A DNA stretch of 64,000 nt from Diplonema papillatum (lineage: Eukaryota; Euglenozoa; Diplonemea; Diplonemida; Diplonemidae): NCBI GenBank assembly GCA_030068145.1, contig JAPJBO010000034.1:434001-498000 (forward strand), written 5' to 3'. The notes beneath the pieces are model-generated. The model did not search any database. It had not been told where the DNA came from and saw nothing but the letters and a program-made list of their open reading frames with translations. Position 1 is the first letter of the stretch. Each line of letters starts with the position of its first letter. Below are positions 6,101-61,483 of the stretch, piece after piece. The position numbers and the translations under genes are program-made.

Positions 6101-6313
6101 ATACTCGAGGGGCTGCCTTGTGATTACTTCGAAGGAGGCTAGAGGGGGAGAAACAGTACAGCTACAAAGTGGGTCTTTTTTGTTGAACGCTTACGCCCGC
6201 CACTAAATCCAGATTTACCTGTGTTTCGTGTGGGCTACAGCACATTTACATCCTTTGATCTATCGCAACTGGCAGTCTCCTCAAGCATTTCCTACAAAGC
6301 GGGTGCTTATGCA
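6101..6313 (-). repeat. R-family repeat, just upstream of aminopeptidase copy 2
   Basis: This is a near-complete copy of the about 240-bp family R in reverse orientation. It runs from ATACTCGAGGGGCTGCC through GAACGCTTACGCCCGCCAC to the CTCAAGCATTTCC / GGTGCTTAT end. The two ends are imperfect inverted repeats of each other. It lies about 70 bases before the predicted start codon, so it is in the 5' leader or promoter of the gene. Confidence 0.8.
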
Positions 6314-53581: not shown

Positions 53582-53787
53582 GTAAGCACCTGCTTTGTAG
53601 GAAATACTTGAGGAGACTGGCAGTTGCGAAATTTCAAATGTGGTACTCATCGGCATACCGGTGACTACCCACTATCGCAACAATATTTCAATCTCAAAGG
53701 AAGTAAGTGTGCTGAAGCCCACACGAAACACAGGTAAACCTGGGTTCAGTGGCGGGCGTAAGCGTTCAACAAAAAAGACCCACTTTG
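53582..53787 (+). repeat. R-family repeat, left half, split by the 7.6-kb element
   Basis: R runs from GGTAAGCACCTGCTTTGTAG to GACCCACTTTG and stops exactly where the composite element begins. Its missing right half (TTTGTAGTTG to CTCGAGTAT) resumes at 61408-61483. A 50-base insert with palindrome CATCGGCATACCGGTG lies at about 53642-53690. Confidence 0.9.
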
Positions 53788-53952
53788 GGACGACGTTTTT
53801 GGAATACCGACGGACAATGTCCCACCCTGGGGCCGTGGCCGGGGTGGGTGGGTACCCCCCCCCCCTAATACTGGTCCATTTTTGGTCCAATTTTTTGGTC
53901 CAATTTTGGTCCAATTTTGGTCCAATTTTCGTCCAATTTTGGTCCCCGAAAA

Positions 53953-54084
53953 CTATGCGCAAGTACGGAACAACCCAAACAACTATTCGCAACTATGCGC
54001 AACTATGCGGTACAGCCCAAACAACTATGCGCAACTATGCGCAACTATGCGCAACTATGCGGAAAAGCCCAAACAACTATGCGG
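53953..54084 (+). repeat. AACTATGCGC array, first block
   Basis: Tandem ACTATGCGCA-type units with interspersed CAGCCCAAACA. The block is preceded by GGTCCAATTTT repeats and followed by a diverged copy (54085-54232) of the module that also sits at 54421 and 59029. Confidence 0.9.
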
Positions 54085-54567
54085 AATGCTTTGTGCGCTT
54101 CACTCGGTGACAGTGATAAGTTCAATGATAATGAACGCGAAAGGAAGAAAATTAAACGAATTGCACTTACGATGGGGTAACCCCCCGAGATAGCCGCTGA
54201 ATGGTGAGAGAAACAGGCTAGCCCAGGAGGTCACGGGGGACGGAGGGCGGGAACCCAGGTCCCCTGGACCTCGCGCTGAACGCGGACATGAAAAACAAGA
54301 CAAGCAACCCGGTGTGGGTGGGTGGGAACTTTTTGTTGTCCGATTCCTTTGAATCCGGTGCCCAACACCTTCCTAGAGAGTGGTTCGTTACGCGCTTAGC
54401 ATTCCCACGATGAATCGACAGAATGCTTTTTGCGCTTCACTCGGTGACGATCTTGACTGACAATGAATTGAACGTGAAAGTAAGAAAACTAAACGAATTG
54501 CACTTACGATGGGGTAACCCCCCGAGATAGCCGCTGAATGGTGAGAGAAACAGGCTAGCCCAGGAGG

Positions 54568-56208
54568 TCACACCACCAAACCCATATCGCCAGTCAGGAA
54601 CTGCCTAACTGCAAGTGCCATGTCGGCCACATTCTTATCGGAAATTGCCGATAACGGAACCCGTGACGGAAGGTCAGCAGGATTCCCGGCGCTTTTTACC
54701 CAGCGCACAGATAAGGAAATGTTCATGTGGCGCAGGCGTGTGAGCCCGTTCACCACGGCATCGTTCAAAGTCTGCGATCGCAGACATGCCCCTTTCCGAG
54801 CAACACCCTGCACCGTCGTGTTGTCGACCACGACGGTGACCGTGCCGCCCGCGTACTTGTCAGGCACTGCCGACACACAAAGTTCAAATGCAAGGGCCTC
54901 CAGCTCGTTGATGTGAAGGCCCTTTTCTTTCCTGGACCACCGCGAGCCCAGAACTTCGATCGCGTTGGTGGCGACGTCAACCAGCACGCCGCCCCATCCC
55001 TCGAGACTTGCGTCCACAAACACGGTGAGCGACGGCACCCGGGCCGCCACTGGCATTCTTCGCTTCTCCAACACCGCGCGAACCCAGCCGTCGAGTAGCC
55101 GCTGCACACTACCCGAGAGGCGAACCGTCTGGTCGACGGCCTTCTCGCCCCGGTTCAGCGCATTCGTCAACCGGCGAAGAAACTTCAAGGCGAAGTAGAA
55201 CTCGCCGACGAAAACACCCACGATGGCCGACGCGTGCAGCAACCGACCACCCAGCGTCTCCAGACCGGACGCGGACATCGCACCCTTGCGCACCTCTACC
55301 AGATCCCGTGCCAATTTCTTCGACAACCTTGCCGAAATGCCGACCTTCCCGCTCTGGTGGTCCCAGTCCACCCCGATAAACTCGTACCGGGTGCTGGCGG
55401 TTCTCGTGTCGGCGTCCTTCCACGTAACCTTCGAACGCGCTGCCAATTCGTCGACCTTGCGGGACGCCTCGAGCACGTCTTTCCGGGACCCCGCGTAACG
55501 CACGTTGTCGACCCACGTGTGCACCGTCACAGCCGCTGGCACCGCATGCGCCGTCTTAACGAAATCGGGGTGCCCGGCGATCGTCGAAGTCAACGTGTGC
55601 ATCAATTCCGGTGCACACGTGTGGCCCATCGGCAGGCGGGTGAGTTCCCACCAATCGCCTGCGTCGTCCTGGAAGCGAAAGGCATCCCGTGCCCCCCGCG
55701 GAACTTCTACGCCGTAAAAACCGCAGCGGAGGTCGCGTGTCGAGCCACACTCCGCGTGCACCGCGTCGAGGTACGTGCTGACGTGCTTCAGCGGTACCTG
55801 GGCCTCGTAGCCATCCGCCTCGATCGCGTCGTTCGCTTCGTGCGTCCACAAAATAAAACGTTGGCGCAGAGCGCCTTCCTTTTCCTCCACCACAGTGAAG
55901 GGGACGTTGACCGACCTACCCGGGCCGCTAGCCCGTTGCGCAATGCCGTTCATCTCCAGCTCCTCCGCATGCTTCGCTTGCAGCCGCGAAACCCGTCGAG
56001 AAGAAGACGGCCGCAATTTCGCCACATCAAACGTCCGCCGCCACGTCTCATCGAACCTGGCCCGCGTCGTCTCGTTCATACGCCCACGCAACAGCCCCAC
56101 GTTCATGGGTCGCACGTTGTCGACGTGCAACGGCGAAGCCTTCTCGTCCTCCGTCTTCGGTAGGCGCGTCTGTTTGCCGCGCTTGAACACCGAGTGGTGC
56201 TGCCGCAT
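54568..56208 (-). CDS. Reverse transcriptase-RNase H ORF of the VIPER-like element
   Basis: The frame is open from 57996 to 54568, but the part upstream of about 56250 overlaps the recombinase ORF, so the protein probably starts near Met at 56208. The RT palm and fingers region lies in the first 300 residues (FYGVEVPRGARDAFRF, LTRLPMGHTCAPEL), and the RNase H domain lies toward the C-terminus (LTVFVDASLEGWGGVLVD, HINELEALAF, VVDNTTVQGV). The role is to copy the element RNA into DNA. The ORF is open. Confidence 0.85.
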   Translation of the reverse strand: MRQHHSVFKRGKQTRLPKTEDEKASPLHVDNVRPMNVGLLRGRMNETTRARFDETWRRTFDVAKLRPSSSRRVSRLQAKHAEELEMNGIAQRASGPGRSVNVPFTVVEEKEGALRQRFILWTHEANDAIEADGYEAQVPLKHVSTYLDAVHAECGSTRDLRCGFYGVEVPRGARDAFRFQDDAGDWWELTRLPMGHTCAPELMHTLTSTIAGHPDFVKTAHAVPAAVTVHTWVDNVRYAGSRKDVLEASRKVDELAARSKVTWKDADTRTASTRYEFIGVDWDHQSGKVGISARLSKKLARDLVEVRKGAMSASGLETLGGRLLHASAIVGVFVGEFYFALKFLRRLTNALNRGEKAVDQTVRLSGSVQRLLDGWVRAVLEKRRMPVAARVPSLTVFVDASLEGWGGVLVDVATNAIEVLGSRWSRKEKGLHINELEALAFELCVSAVPDKYAGGTVTVVVDNTTVQGVARKGACLRSQTLNDAVVNGLTRLRHMNISLSVRWVKSAGNPADLPSRVPLSAISDKNVADMALAVRQFLTGDMGLVV

Positions 56209-56246
56209 GAACCGTCTCGGATCATCGTGGCCCCGCTTCCGGCCCT

Positions 56247-57449
56247 TCACAGGTGTTCGGTCACCTCCGCCGTTCTCAACACGCGCGCCAGTGCCACCAC
56301 ATCCGACGTGTACCGCACCGTCATTTGAGCCAGCGTCGGGTCGACGTTGTCGGCGGTGTGTTTCGCCAAGCGCGAAATCAGGTGCTCGGGAAATGGAGCC
56401 CCCGCCGCTTTCGCGCACACGAGGTGGTCGACCGCCCCTCGTTTGATGCTGTGCGCCGAGTACCGGCACATCCGCGGTTCGCGCGCCCACATCCCGTCGA
56501 GCTGCGACGTTGTCACCGGCGTCAGCGGGCTGAAATTCCCTGCGCCACGTACCAACGCCGCGATCTCCTCCGTCAACGCCCCGCGAATCACTGCTGTTTT
56601 GCTCAGACAATACGGGTTTCTGGAACGCCCCTTCGGAAGCGTTCCCCAGTCGATGATCACCTCCGTGGTGCTCACCAGCACAAAACACGGGCGCGTCAAC
56701 AGTCTCACCTCCGCCCAGCGCGACGCCGTCTTCCACGCCACGAACGCTGCCAAACGCAGGTGCGGCACCTGCCGCCTCGCCCACGAAATCAGCGTCTCCC
56801 TCGGGATACCCTCCGCCTGGGACAGGGGGATAGACGCCCCATCCCCACGAAGCACCGACGCCAGCACCTTCAACGGCTTGCTGTCCACCCCCATATGGCC
56901 AAAAACTGCCGAAAGGAGGCGGGAATACCCCAACATCCCCTGGGGTTCCACTGACGTTGCCACAACAAAAAGCACAGCCACATCCGGGTTGAGGCCCAGT
57001 CCACGCCCACTGGCCCACGCCTGGAACCGGCGCCACATATTGCGCCGGTCGTCCACCGTAGAACTCGCCCATGCCCGACCAACTGCCTGCTGCAAACGGC
57101 GGTGCGCCTCCGCCACCGACACCCCATTCTCCTTGTGTCTCGCCGCAAGAGCCCGGGAAATCCCCACGCCCGTCTTCGACGCCACCAACTCGTGGATCGC
57201 CTGCCCGATGACTGAGGCTGCGCGCGCCGACGGTTTCAGCACGTCTGCTACCCCGAGCGAGGATGCGGGAAACTGCGAAGAGTTGGTTCTCCCGCTCTCG
57301 CGTGAAGGGCCGGTGGTCGGGTTCTGATCGGACCGGTCGCTCGGGAGAAGATGGTCCGCGTCTAGGGCGCGCCGAACGGCCGCCAAAACCGTCTCGGTCT
57401 CCACTTCGAGAGGAACTCTGTGGTTGGTGCGGGGAGGGGCCGGCGGCAC
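56247..57449 (-). CDS. Tyrosine recombinase ORF of the VIPER-like element
   Basis: A 400-residue protein whose C-terminal half has the tyrosine-recombinase arrangement: TASRWAEVRLL (first Arg), YSAHSIKRGAVDHL (H-x2-R), LAKHTADNVD (His) and a late VRYTSD Tyr. The N-terminal 150 residues resemble a SAM-like core-binding domain (VSVAEAHRRLQQAVGRAW). It would integrate circular DNA copies. It lies between gag and RT, as in VIPER; in DIRS and Ngaro elements the recombinase follows RT. Confidence 0.85.
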   Translation of the reverse strand: MPPAPPRTNHRVPLEVETETVLAAVRRALDADHLLPSDRSDQNPTTGPSRESGRTNSSQFPASSLGVADVLKPSARAASVIGQAIHELVASKTGVGISRALAARHKENGVSVAEAHRRLQQAVGRAWASSTVDDRRNMWRRFQAWASGRGLGLNPDVAVLFVVATSVEPQGMLGYSRLLSAVFGHMGVDSKPLKVLASVLRGDGASIPLSQAEGIPRETLISWARRQVPHLRLAAFVAWKTASRWAEVRLLTRPCFVLVSTTEVIIDWGTLPKGRSRNPYCLSKTAVIRGALTEEIAALVRGAGNFSPLTPVTTSQLDGMWAREPRMCRYSAHSIKRGAVDHLVCAKAAGAPFPEHLISRLAKHTADNVDPTLAQMTVRYTSDVVALARVLRTAEVTEHL

Positions 57450-57548
57450 CGTGACTGCCGCGGGGGTGGGAGGATTGAATAAAAGAGGGGGAGGAAGAAT
57501 AACTGGCCGTGCAGGGGTAGCCCCGCTTACTTGCCGGGGGAACGCCAG

Positions 57549-58658
57549 TCACTTCCCCCCGTAACCGTTTCCCTGACCATACCAAGACTTGCCCCCTTTT
57601 CCGCCTTTGCCTTTCTTCCAAGCAGGCGTCGCGTTCCACTTCGGCGTCCTGTTCTTCTCCTTCTCCAGGTCCCCTTTGACCTTCGCCATCAACCGCTCGA
57701 CCAAGTCGCCGGACTCGGCTTCCATCTCCCGTAGCATCCGGGACCGCGGGACCTTCTCCACGCACCAACCGTAGTTGAGGCGGACATCCAGCAACAGCTC
57801 GTTGCCCAGCCGGACCAGCTCCTCGTTGGCCGACCACCCCGCCGACCCGGCTGCGACCCCAAGGATCCACGTCTTCAGCTTCTCGAAGCTCGCCTTCAAG
57901 AACGCGCCCCCCGGGGCTCCGACGTACCCAGCCACGTACTCCGAATGGAGGTCGCGAACGAGCCCGTGCGGGTCGGACGCCGCAACATCCGCCCATTCGC
58001 GGACATCCTTCAGACTGTACCGCACGGGCAGCGCGTAGTGTCCTGCCGGCCCCTCAAAGGCAGCAGCCGACAGGCTGGCCGCCGGTAGCCCCGAAAGCCG
58101 TCCGTGCAGCGAGGCGATCTCCGCCTTCTGCTGCTCCACCACAGCGTACAGGTCCTTAACCAACGCGGCTAGGCCCCCGTTCGCGTCCGCGGACGCCCCA
58201 GCAACAGGGGGCGGAGGGAGAACCGGTGGCGCCACCGGCTCAATGGGATCGGCCTCGGCGTCCCTCCGCTCCGCCTCGGCCCACATGCGGCACGCGGGCA
58301 CGCCTTCCTTCCAGCATCCACTCGCCTTCATCACGCGTCGAAACAACGGGCCGTTCGTAGCACCGACCTCCGCCAGCACGGCAATGAGCTTCCAAGGCTC
58401 CCAGGACTCAACAAAACCTACGCCCTCCGAGGCCGCCGCAAACTCAAAAACTTCGCACGCAACCTTGCGCGCCAGCGCAACGGCGTCTCCGGCACCCCCA
58501 AAGAAGAACACGGCCCACCTCTCCAACTCTGGCAGGTTCACGGTGCGGCGCGGAAGGACGGGTCCCACCGCATCTTCGAACGCACTGCGGATATCCGCCG
58601 GCACCGCGAACGTGGTGTACCCGGTGGACGTCGCCTTTCGGAAGGGACTTGCTGCCAT
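57549..58658 (-). CDS. Gag-like ORF of the VIPER-like element
   Basis: A 369-residue protein beginning MAASPFRKATS. The middle is helical with a short coiled coil (LYAVVEQQKAEIASLHGRL) and the tail is basic Gly/Lys/Asn-rich (KGKGGKGGKSWYG), suited to RNA binding. There is no zinc knuckle. Gag identity is by position and composition. Confidence 0.7.
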   Translation of the reverse strand: MAASPFRKATSTGYTTFAVPADIRSAFEDAVGPVLPRRTVNLPELERWAVFFFGGAGDAVALARKVACEVFEFAAASEGVGFVESWEPWKLIAVLAEVGATNGPLFRRVMKASGCWKEGVPACRMWAEAERRDAEADPIEPVAPPVLPPPPVAGASADANGGLAALVKDLYAVVEQQKAEIASLHGRLSGLPAASLSAAAFEGPAGHYALPVRYSLKDVREWADVAASDPHGLVRDLHSEYVAGYVGAPGGAFLKASFEKLKTWILGVAAGSAGWSANEELVRLGNELLLDVRLNYGWCVEKVPRSRMLREMEAESGDLVERLMAKVKGDLEKEKNRTPKWNATPAWKKGKGGKGGKSWYGQGNGYGGK

Positions 58659-58767
58659 GTTTTCTTTAACTTGCGGAACTTTTGTTGTCCGATTCCTTTG
58701 AATCCGGTGCCCAACACCTTCCTAGAGAGTGGTTCGTTACGCGCTTAGCATTCCCACGATGAATCGA

Positions 58768-59028
58768 CACAACTATGCGCAACTATGCGGAACAGCCCAA
58801 ACAACTATGCGCAACTATGCGGAACGACCCCAAAGTATGCGGAACAGCCCAAACAACTATGCGCAACTATGCGCAACTATGCGCAACTATGCGCAACTAT
58901 GCGGAAAAGCCCAAACAACATGCGCAACTATGCGCAACTATGCGGAACGACCCCAAAGTATGCGGAACAGCCCAAACAACTATGCGCAACTATGCGCAAC
59001 TATGCGGAACAGCCCAAACAACTATGCG
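58768..59028 (+). repeat. AACTATGCGC array, second block
   Basis: Units ACTATGCGCA and ACTATGCGGAACAGCCCAAAC alternate, with two GACCCCAAAGTATGCGG variants. It sits between modules X and Y at the gag end of the retroelement. The same array in the opposite orientation occurs at 60749-61190. Confidence 0.92.
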
Positions 59029-59196
59029 GAATGCTTTTTTGCGCTTCACTCGGTGACGATCTTGACTGACAATGAATTGAACGTGAAAGTAAGAAAACTA
59101 AACGAATTGCACTTACGATGGGGTAACCCCCCGAGATAGCCGCTGAATGGTGAGAGAAACAGGCTAGCCCAGGAGGTCACACCACCAAACTTTTTG

Positions 59197-59464
59197 TTCG
59201 AGACTGGAGGTCCTATGAACATGCAATGTGAATAGCCTCTATTCGAGCCAACCCCACTTTTACTTACTGTACTGTTTTGTACTAGATAATAGCGCGGAGC
59301 TGGCTTTTTCCGTTTTTCGGATTTCATGCCTGTATGGTCCACTTCAACAGTGCGACGGTCTCCGGACCCACAGGTCCGCGGTTCGATCCCCGCGCGAAGT
59401 GTTTTTTTCGGTTTGAAGTTTTTGAGAATTTTTCGAGACTGGAGGTCCTATGAACATGCAATGT
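59197..59464 (+). repeat. 33-bp direct repeats framing a 202-bp segment
   Basis: TTCGAGACTGGAGGTCCTAT...ATGCAATGT is found identically at 59197-59229 and 59432-59464. The segment between holds the tRNA-like sequence. Confidence 0.9.
59330..59406 (+). tRNA. tRNA-like sequence with B box and poly-T stop, probably degenerate
   Basis: GGTTCGATCCC (59381-59391) is a perfect RNA polymerase III B box, and TTTTTTT follows at 59402-59408. CACTTC and GAAGTG can pair as an acceptor stem, and GTCTCCGGA resembles an Arg(CCG) anticodon loop. The anticodon and D arms do not fold well and spacing is short, so it is more likely a tRNA-derived relic than a working tRNA. Confidence 0.3.
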
Positions 59465-60600
59465 TCACCAGAACTTTGCTTCACCCGAACTTCGCCCGAA
59501 CTTTGCTTCGCCCGAACTTAGCTTCACCCGAACTTAGCTTCGCCCGAACTTTGTTTTGCCCGATCTTAGCTTCACCAGAACTTTGCTTCACCCGAACTTT
59601 GCTTCCCCCAGAACTTTGCTTCGCCCGAACTTTGCTTCACCAGAACTTAGCTTCGCCCGAACTTTGCTTCACCCGAACTTAGCTTCACCCGAACTTAGCT
59701 TCGCCCGAACTTTGTTTCGCCCGATCTTAGCTTCACCAGAACTTTGCTTCACCCGAACTTTGCTTCCCCCAGAACTTAGCTTCGCCCGGACTTTGTTTCG
59801 CCCGAACTTAGCTTGACCCGAACTTTGCTTCGCCCGAACTTTGCTTCACCAGAACTTAGCTTCCCCCAGAACTTTTTTCGCCCAACTTTGCTTCACCAGA
59901 ACTTTGCTTCATCGAACTTTGCTTCCCCCAGAACTTAGCTTCGCCCGAACTTTGTTTCGCCCGAACTTAGCTTCGCCCAGAACTTTGCTTCGCCCGAACT
60001 TTGTTTCGCCCGAACTTTGTTTCGCCCGAACTTAGCTTCACCAGAACTTGCTTCACCCGAACTTAGCTTCGCCCGAACTTTGCTTCACCAGAACTTAGCT
60101 TCCCCCAGAACTTTGTTTCGCCCGAACTTTGCTTCACCAGAACTTTGCTTCATCCGAACTTAGCTTCGCCCAGAACTTTGCTTCGCCCGAACTTTGTTTC
60201 GCCCAACTTTGTTTCGCCCGAACTTAGCTTCACCAGAACTTTGCTTCACCCGAACTTAGCTTCGCCCGAACTTTGCTTCACCAGAACTTAGCTTCACCCG
60301 AACTTTGCTTCACCCGAACTTAGCTTCGCCGAACTTTGTTTCGCCCGATCTTAGCTTCACCAGAACGTCCGAACTTTGCTTCACCCAGAACTTAGCTTCG
60401 CCCGGACTTTGTTTCGCCCGAACTTAGCTTCACCTTCGCCCGAACTTTGCTTCACCAGAACTTTGCTCACCCGAACTTAGCTTCGCCCGAACTTTGCTTC
60501 GCCCGAACTTTGTTTCGCCCGAACTTAGCTTCACCCGAACTTTGCTTCACCAGAACTTAGCATTGCCCGAACTTAGCTTCGCCCGAACTTTGCTGTTCCC
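59465..60600 (+). repeat. 16-bp minisatellite (CCGAACTTNGCTTCRC)
   Basis: About 70 units such as GAACTTTGCTTCGCCC and GAACTTAGCTTCACCC with length variants fill 1.1 kb. It is non-coding despite open frames. Confidence 0.93.
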
Positions 60601-60748
60601 CGAACTTTAACTGCTGCCTCCAGTCTCGCCACGCGCCGGCCTTAGCCGAGCGCACGTACTTGTCCGATTCCTTTGAATCCGGTGCCCAACACCTTCCTAG
60701 AGAGTGGTTCGTTACGCGCTTAGCATTCCCCACGATGAATCGACACAA

Positions 60749-61190
60749 CTATGCGCATACTTTGGGGTCGTTCCGCATAGTTGCGCATAGTTGCGCATAG
60801 TTGTTTGGGCTTTTCCGCATAGTTGCGCATAGTTGCGCATAGTTGTTTGGGCTGTTCCGCATACTTTGGGGTCGTTCCGCATAGTTGCGCATAGTTGCGC
60901 ATAGTTGTTTGGGCTGTTCCGCATACTTTGGGGTCGTTCCGCATAGTTGCGCATAGTTGTTTGGGCTTTTCCGCATAGTTGCGCATAGTTGTTTGGGATG
61001 TTCCGCATCGTTGTGCATAGTTGTTTGGGCTTTTCCGCATAGTTTCAGGTTGTTGCGCATAGTTGCGCATAGTTGTTTGGGCTTTTCCGCATAGTTTCAG
61101 GTTGTTCCGCATAGTTGCGCATAGTTGTTTGGGCTGTTCCGCATACTTTCGGGTCGTTGCGCATAGTTGCGCATAATGGTTTGGGATGAT
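60749..61190 (-). repeat. AACTATGCGC array in inverted orientation
   Basis: The reverse complement of the 58768 array (GCGCATAGTTGCGCATAGTT). It directly follows an X module (60661-60748) that has kept the forward orientation. The switch from ACAACTATGCGCATAC to reversed units lies at about 60755. Confidence 0.92.
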
Positions 61191-61407
61191 CTTAACACGT
61201 CCAAAAAAAAACCTCAAAAAAAAAATTTCCCGCTGCGCGGGGCCAAGAAATCCCCCACAAAAAATGCCCCAAAAAAAATTTCCCCGCTTCGCGGGGGAAA
61301 ATTGTTAGGTAAAAAAAAGATTTCTCGGGATTTCTGGGGGGTGGGTGGGTACCCCCCCCCCCCATTTTCGACGGACAATGTCCGTCGGTATTCCAAAAAC
61401 GTCATCC

Positions 61408-61483
61408 CTTTGTAGTTGTTGTTTTCTTCCCCTCTAGCCTCCGTCGAAATGAGCACCAGGCAGTCCCTCGAGTATTTTCACTT
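61408..61483 (+). repeat. R-family repeat, right half of the split copy
   Basis: CTTTGTAGTTGTTGTTTTCT to GGCAGTCCCTCGAGTATT completes the R copy begun at 53582. CTTTG is present at both junctions. Confidence 0.9.

Follow-up and report, generated by a model that had tools for sequence, protein, structure and literature searches.

Miniature inverted-repeat transposable elements (MITEs) of the PIF/Harbinger-Tourist type make a 3-bp target duplication (usually TWA or CWG), have GG-type termini and occur as short non-autonomous forms, and VIPER retroelements have the gene order gag, tyrosine recombinase and reverse transcriptase (RT)/RNase H. We analyzed a 64,000-bp stretch of the genome of the diplonemid Diplonema papillatum, a free-living marine flagellate (contig JAPJBO010000034.1, positions 434,001 to 498,000; hereafter the window) in which a copy of a dispersed repeat, R, is split by an element with terminal inverted repeats (TIRs) that in turn holds a VIPER-like retroelement. 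We found that R is a preferred, repeated and precise target for the family to which the TIR element belongs, and that the retroelement enters tandem arrays at a preferred phase. The locus probably represents a non-autonomous, target-selective TIR family of D. papillatum that forms a two-step landing-site chain with the VIPER-like retroelement.

The outer element is like the PIF/Harbinger-Tourist MITEs in its 3-bp duplication, GG-type termini and short forms, but its target, in which the three bases vary, does not appear to be TWA or CWG, and the Harbinger DDE domain PF13359 had no match in the D. papillatum genome, in a search that matched 1 of 14 control genomes and had no in-genome positive control. 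The inner element follows the VIPER gene order and differs from the trypanosomatid elements in its diplonemid host, its near-identical copies and the location of many of these inside the 10-bp arrays of the TIR element. The closest published analogue that we found is the Tetris/DAIBAM system of Drosophila virilis, a foldback element and a MITE with internal tandem repeats (PMC4079207). In the parts of that paper considered here, Tetris and DAIBAM resemble the D. papillatum family in being non-autonomous, modular, size-variable TIR forms with internal tandem repeats, in a TIR end common to a miniature element and in the lack of a named autonomous partner. Unlike the Drosophila system as described there, the D. 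papillatum family has arrays built of 10-bp and TTGGTCC-type units, its element is found repeatedly at a single, exact site within another repeat, and a tyrosine-recombinase retroelement inserts into its arrays. The D. papillatum genome paper, in the sections considered, defers rigorous transposon identification and names TATE, MULE and Helitron for 60-odd DNA-transposon-like open reading frames (ORFs) (PMC10161547). A passage of a second paper refers to a report that transposons are of low diversity in Paradiplonema (PMC12278014), and in part of a third MITE-like elements are suggested as intron sources in two other diplonemid species (PMC12621601). We found no description of the outer TIR family in the portions covered of the open literature on D. 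papillatum and diplonemid transposons, VIPER and TIRs (subscription papers excluded).

The TIR family and its landing site

The genome searched comprised 271 Mb in 2910 contigs; labels with L and C denote loci and contigs fetched from it. The nest is real: put together, the two R halves of the window form a single R copy of the same kind as the empty copies, and an origin from two R copies brought together by rearrangement was rejected by the alignment of host and empty R. A first-pass annotation of the sequence had described a split and resumed R copy, inverted ends and a retroelement inside, and had read them as a large cargo-bearing non-autonomous element; all of these were present as noted, and our results supported the reading. 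Its count of three layers needed revision. The layers that it named exist, and there are more of them, as a second VIPER remnant (59029-60744) is itself interrupted by a 1.47-kb insert.

The outer element occupies positions 53787-61408 (7622 bp, flanking G and C included) and has TIRs of the form GGGAYGACG...CGTCRTCCC. The end sequence occurred twice in the window, in inverted orientation; none was expected from shuffled sequences, which ruled out a chance origin of the ends. Genome-wide, 171 ends were found at up to three mismatches (83 on the plus and 88 on the minus strand), and a reversed-pattern control gave none. Exact ends numbered 138 (54 GGAC and 84 GGAT), and many ends formed facing pairs at a spacing of 0.13-14 kb. 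Inverted pairs with matching duplications were present elsewhere in the genome, a point on which the first-pass annotation had beforehand staked its reading. We read 122 of the 138 exact ends by coordinate, leaving out 16 exact and 33 inexact ends, and fetched 20 stretches around end pairs, 19 of which held both ends. Together with the window and a small copy, L073, these gave 21 complete copies of 135-9427 bp; copies on C199 (14 kb) and C1305 (12 kb) were excluded from this set. Exact 28-bp inverted ends were present on all 19 fetched pairs and in the window, the TIRs of the family measuring about 28-36 bp (GGGAYGACGTTTTTGGAATACCGACGGAC...). A normal copy had two distinguishable ends, A and B, with only the terminal 28-36 bp in common, and a few of the 122 ends were of neither type (4 + 3 + 3). 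The B-side subterminal region lay on contigs with an exact end in 37 of its 41 genome matches and on contigs without one in 4. By its TIRs, constant duplication length and short forms lacking a transposase (135, 137, 292 and 365 bp), the outer family is a MITE-like, size-variable, non-autonomous DNA transposon. Viral contigs contained no exact match to the end sequence, and a viral carrier of the element was rejected.

We then compared the sites at which the ends were found. The R target site had 7008 matches genome-wide (up to three mismatches), and empty R sites carried a single CTTTG. The published genome, an assembly of about 280 Mb with 52% repeats, is described in the sections considered as one whose most frequent dispersed motif has about 6000 copies (PMC10161547), and R may be that motif. 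Among the 122 ends, 44 lay at the R site (22 per side of R), 24 belonged to copies of an amplified larger repeat and 54 were elsewhere. A stricter R test gave 39 R, 24 duplicated and 59 other ends, 4 of which still adjoined R sequence; the L086 end, first counted as R, was not R by this test, and L034, one of the 54 ends elsewhere, lay at another place within an R copy. The 54 non-R flanks had a consensus with A in 63-74% at -15 to -17, a T-rich segment at -8 to -10 and C at -5 in 31 of 54. A two-sided target matrix was trained on 53 non-R flanks (R-similarity score up to 13, on a scale where 9 is not exceeded by 95% of random 40-mers from the window). With this matrix six empty R sites scored 19.5, 18.7, 15.6, 19.2, 19.5 and 19.5, and five of them exceeded the window maximum of 16.8 over 63,950 positions. 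The second-best window position (16.3, position 6166) was the window's own other R copy. When control matrices were made from random window sequence, 1 of 200 placed R among the highest-scoring 0.1% of 2000 positions sampled, and the median rank was 45%. Insertions outside R therefore predict R as a target, which makes R a preferred landing site.

R (53583-53786 + 61409-61478) is itself MITE-like in look, with inverted ends GGAAATACTTGAGGAGACTGCC / GGCAGTCCCTCGAGTATTTT, and a T-rich run often lies upstream of it. A second repeated target was seen besides R, the flank CCCGGTTAAAAAATCTTTGATCTG being common to ends of L022 (C38) and L088 (C240) in opposite orientations. The 24 A ends with one common outer flank (...AAGATGATTGGG) lie mostly on small contigs and represent an amplified larger repeat that contains one insertion (L061, L089, L093, L097, L102, L104, L106-L118 and L120-L124). 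Another repeat, with GTGCAGTAGTAAA-type ends and ACTAGTAAA arrays, recurs beside G/C runs inside the TIR ends; it was seen at L058/L059 (C199), L068, L077, L095 and, as a variant, L119.

The retroelement and its arrays

The ends of the inner retroelement were fixed by comparing copies in other surroundings (L063 and L064), and its order is A1, ORF1, tyrosine recombinase, RT/RNase H, B1, A2, B2. Its RT ORF had 105 homologues, including a D. papillatum protein with 99% identity over the whole length, and aligned with TcC31.12 of Trypanosoma grayi at 35% identity over 94% of the query; we take TcC31.12 to belong to VIPER. The RT_RNaseH match in the enclosing frame (Pfam, E 0.0011) was under the curated cut-off. 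By sequence comparison, the inner element has an RT/RNase H related to VIPER. It also has split direct repeats, A1 ... B1 A2 B2, in the order given for trypanosomatid VIPER in the portion of the source considered (PMC6681497).

For the recombinase ORF, Pfam and PDB sequence searches gave no useful match, and we therefore used alignment, a structure model and a fold search. The model had a mean pLDDT of 78.7 and gave 22 Foldseek matches at E of 0.001 or less, nearly all of them Cre-type entries. The top match was 3c28_B, a product synapse complex (E 1.4e-6), and the second was Cre recombinase 1ma7_A, at E 2.5e-6 with a query-length TM of 0.39 and a root-mean-square deviation of 7.6; the matches in general had a TM of about 0.4 by query length and a deviation of about 7. 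Tyrosine recombinases carry an R/K/R/H/Y motif. In an alignment of 19 sequences R244, H364 and Y380 were invariant, and K273 and R337 were present in at least 90%. Fold match and residues together mark this ORF of 400 amino acids as that of a tyrosine recombinase. The best-scoring 40 of 670 candidate RT-region copies, the window's included, were 97-100% identical, and the VIPER-like family was therefore active recently. VIPER is not known to make a target duplication, and none was evident at L063 or L064; the array targets are repetitive. To the right of L064 (C144) the VIPER-like element lies within a long GGTTACA-type tandem array, beyond which a second, different frame looks gag-like by eye.

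The CAACTATGCG unit of the arrays in the outer element is 10 bp long. In CAACTATGCG-type arrays, 8 of 12 distinct 5' junctions read CATAGTTG|TGT (counted by eye; one of the eight differs by a base within the end of the element), and 12 of 17 3' junctions began (C)CGCATA, a preferred phase of entry. VIPER coding sequence (>300 bp) was found in 10 of the 16 array-bearing complete copies and in none of the 5 array-less ones, a comparison in which size and array are confounded. From the best 40 RT copies, 18 were at most 12 kb inward of an exact end, and 8 of these 18 lay between two ends; about 0.5% was expected for 10 kb.

We also considered when the cargo arrived. Subtracting the VIPER (4686 bp) and the remnant with its insert (1716 bp) from the 7622 bp of the window element gives a remainder of 1220 bp. 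Among the complete copies, 11 lack VIPER coding sequence: the four short forms named above and copies of 1154, 1208, 1328, 1878, 2421, 4262 and 4456 bp, with a median of 1208 bp. The remainder is at this median, which is consistent with a short element of the usual kind that inserted into R first and took on its load later. VIPER coding sequence in 10 of the 21 complete copies, 18 of the best 40 VIPER copies adjoining exact ends, and clean 3-bp duplications around large copies (the window, L041, L048 and L049) would also follow if TIR ends, VIPER and arrays made up one large transposon that moves as a unit with VIPER as its regular cargo. We regard such movement, which the first-pass annotation had put forward as one of two options, as unlikely, since VIPER faces either way with respect to the ends and occupies differing array positions, has exact ends of its own and is also found in unrelated repeats, and since identical ends and 3-bp duplications are found in copies of 135-1328 bp that lack VIPER coding sequence. 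In a partial survey of VIPER junctions among the fetched copies, no clear common insertion was seen. The cargo probably came after the outer insertion; later acquisition is the simpler account because VIPER-less copies have like ends and duplications and the arrays are entered at a preferred phase.

The features of the nest are listed below. A tRNA gene in the 1.47-kb insert was rejected, as ARAGORN made no call.

Features of the nested locus (window positions)
Feature	Position	Strand	Basis or remark
R copy, left half (dispersed repeat, ~270 bp), with left target duplication TTT (53784-53786)	53583..53786	+	alignment with empty R copies
A end of TIR element, GGGACGACGTTTTTGGAATACCGACGGACAATGTCCCACCCTGGGGCCG...GGGTGGGTGGGTACCCCC	53787..53865	+	171 related ends genome-wide; A-type inner sequence recurs
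TTGGTCCAATTT array, A-side subterminal module	53866..53947	+	sequence; recurs inside other copies
CAACTATGCG array, left part	53952..54083	+	16 of the 21 complete copies hold array words
Full-length VIPER-like retroelement with tyrosine recombinase, 4686 bp, TGTCGATTC...AAAGCATTC	54084..58769	-	equal ends at L063, L064
Split direct repeat B2 (82% to B1 over 155 nt)	54084..54244	-	
Split direct repeat A2	54331..54423	-	
Split direct repeat B1	54427..54581	-	
RT/RNase H ORF, 546 amino acids	54568..56208	-	RT_RNaseH match, 105 homologues
Tyrosine recombinase ORF, 400 amino acids	56247..57449	-	structure model, Foldseek, residue conservation
ORF1 (gag position), 369 amino acids	57549..58658	-	no Pfam match
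Split direct repeat A1	58680..58769	-	
CAACTATGCG array, continued	58770..59028	+	
Second VIPER-like remnant: B copy (59029-59190), A copy (60661-60744), unrelated insert between	59029..60744	-	
1.47-kb insert: short start and 16-bp CCCGAACTTTGCTTCG-type array	59191..60660	.	like start and end beside L063
CGCATAGTTG array (inverted), right part	60745..61190	-	
B-side subterminal region	61186..61354	+	41 genome matches
B end of TIR element, ...CATTTTCGACGGACAATGTCCGTCGGTATTCCAAAAACGTCATCCC	61355..61408	-	genome-wide end matches, shuffle test
R copy, right half, starting with right target duplication TTT (61409-61411)	61409..61478	+	alignment with empty R copies

Target duplication, transposase and recurrence in R

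The base before GGAYGACG was G in all 122 exact ends read, and the base after the right end was C in all 21 complete copies. These invariant bases are therefore best counted to the element and not to the duplication, and the duplication of the window, for which the first-pass annotation had given 5 bp (CTTTG), is better read as 3 bp (TTT, at 53784-53786 and 61409-61411). A 3-bp duplication was found in 19 of the 21 complete copies, and the 5-bp reading fitted 14. Among the seven copies outside R, counting in L054, which a loose automatic match had filed under R and which is not R, 3 bp fitted six and 5 bp two. In a control, mispaired ends of six copies filed as non-R matched in 0 of 30 cases. 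The duplicated NNN varied (TTT/AAA, TCT, CCC, TGT, TAG, ACC, AAT, ATA). It is improbable that the duplication is really 5 bp (CNNNG) and made by a transposase of the 5-bp group: 12 of the 14 copies with identical 5-bp flanks are insertions in R, whose target in any case reads C-TTT-G (in one copy C-TCT-G), and such a duplication, which would suit the 31 of 54 non-R ends that have C at -5, has against it the outcome in the non-R copies and the constant outer G.

Fifty-seven stretches (the complete copies, C199, C1305, the 1.5 kb inward of 30 ends, and L125-L127) were scanned for frames of at least 150 amino acids. Out of 289 frames, 100 matched VIPER, 133 were of low complexity and 50 were distinct others; we read these 50 by eye and ran Pfam on about 12 frames. 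In agreement with the first-pass annotation, which had seen no outer transposase, none belonging to the outer ends was recognised in the 57 stretches, in a scan that genes with short exons would escape. Mobilisation is probably of the cut-and-paste type and in trans. The only transposase-like frames were the hAT-like ones of L125 and L126. L127 (2.8 kb inside an A end) had no transposase-like frame by eye, and its 169-amino-acid frame gave only weak Pfam matches under the cut-off. PF02992 (Transposase_21) had no match in the genome, nor any in the control genomes. CACTA/EnSpm elements have a Transposase_21 domain and CACTA ends, from which the outer ends differ.

Elements of the hAT superfamily make an 8-bp duplication and have CAGGG-type ends; neither GGG ends nor a duplication of 3 bp is hAT-like. 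With its 3-bp duplication and GGGAYGACG ends, the outer family did not agree with a hAT identity. It is very unlikely that it belongs to hAT and that the hAT-like ORFs in two copies are its transposase, and these ORFs were rejected for that role. The candidate at L029/L125 is an open frame of 797 codons that lies about 260 bp in from an A end (Dimer_Tnp_hAT, E 0.0016; zf-BED, E 0.13), but this frame comes after a hAT-like end, CAAGGGTACCTGTAACTC, also present in L060 and L062, and only its near end was seen. At L022/L126 a 311-amino-acid frame near the B end (Dimer_Tnp_hAT, E 0.0013) lies between TIRs of its own, CAGGGGATTATACGGGC...GCCCCGTATAAACCCCTG, accompanied by a repeat of 8-9 bp, ATTTTTAG(C), and is therefore part of a nested hAT. 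Further frames of 404 and 321 amino acids there, one of them hAT-like by eye and without Pfam match, had no A end in the 8.8 kb read beside them, and the hAT Pfam matches were all under the curated cut-offs.

The frames were also described in their own right. The 797-codon hAT-like transposase frame of L125 (C107), inward of the A end, has an AT-hook-like start and a zf-BED-like finger. In L126 (C38) the nested hAT-like element, with a frame resembling a C-terminal dimerisation region, lies inward of the B end at a distance of about 0.3-1.3 kb. The overlapping 321-amino-acid (several Cys motifs) and 404-amino-acid frames lie about 4.7-6.5 kb from that end beside GTTCGAGAATGGGCAAAAAGTTA repeats; the latter ends in a hAT-like stretch by eye, and neither gave a convincing Pfam match.

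The insertions in R occurred in both orientations. By ends, 25 of the 44 were typed one way, 13 the other way and 6 were untyped, both ends of a copy being counted apart; by copies, 11 hosts gave 5 versus 4 with 2 untyped. We aligned the host R in 11 of the 14 complete R-hosted copies, leaving out L048 (short flank), L057 and L073. The outer flanks differed among these 11, and an internal R segment was missing in 9 of them and present in the R of the window and in the empty copies L002, L003, L004 and L006; the host R of L055 was truncated. Hitch-hiking, whereby one R copy took up the element and the composite was then amplified, could draw on the abundance of R (7008 sites) and on the 24 of 122 ends that do show one insertion amplified by a larger repeat, but is hardly credible in view of both orientations, the unlike outer flanks and internal length variant of the 11 hosts, the widely differing element interiors and the R-like targets predicted from insertions outside R.

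A proposed landing-site chain

We propose that a transposase supplied from elsewhere would have inserted a non-autonomous copy, now 53787-61408, into R. This transposase would prefer an extended, approximately palindromic target that is A-rich about 14-19 bp out, continues with C, NNN and G, and is T-rich about 14-19 bp out, and R presents a near-optimal target of this kind in thousands of copies. In many copies the element contains the 10-bp CAACTATGCG array, into which the VIPER-like retroelement integrates at its preferred phase, GCATAGTTG^CGCATAG. More insertions would follow and build a hierarchical nest, each layer supplying a preferred landing site of the next.

Several observations weigh against this reading of a target-selective, non-autonomous family in a two-step chain. 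No transposase of the outer ends was recognised, and 24 of the 122 ends share one flank as copies of a larger repeat and are not separate insertions. Some of the 53 flanks used to train the matrix were slightly R-like (scores up to 12). The flanks of C199 had no matching duplication, C1305 had two A ends and no duplication, and L046 and L057 (2 of the 21 copies) were without matching 3-bp flanks, L046 having ACTG on both sides (4 bp, one base extra). Four of the five array-less copies were short (135-1208 bp), which is the source of the confounding of size and array, and the wide size range of the VIPER-less copies (135-4456 bp) weakens the size argument. As for the retroelement, 22 of the best 40 RT copies had no exact end nearby, the 40 being best-scoring and not random, and 2 of the 3 copies fetched away from ends sit in other repeats.

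A more far-reaching version is possible, and we offer it tentatively: the outer family may be mobilised by an undescribed diplonemid superfamily, with R, the TIR element and the VIPER layers as a self-sustaining landing-site chain in which every mobile family would depend on sites created by its predecessor. Equally tentative hallmarks of such a superfamily would be the GGGAYGACG ends, the 3-bp duplication and the extended palindromic A-tract/C-NNN-G/T-tract target. If true, a self-sustaining chain would keep insertions within repeats and away from genes.

Diplonemid protists are abundant in the sea and have genomes rich in repeats. A predictive target rule would explain why the thousands of R copies attract another transposon, and also why the retroelement then accumulates in that transposon. 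The finding may bear on the evolution of safe-haven targeting outside plants and animals.

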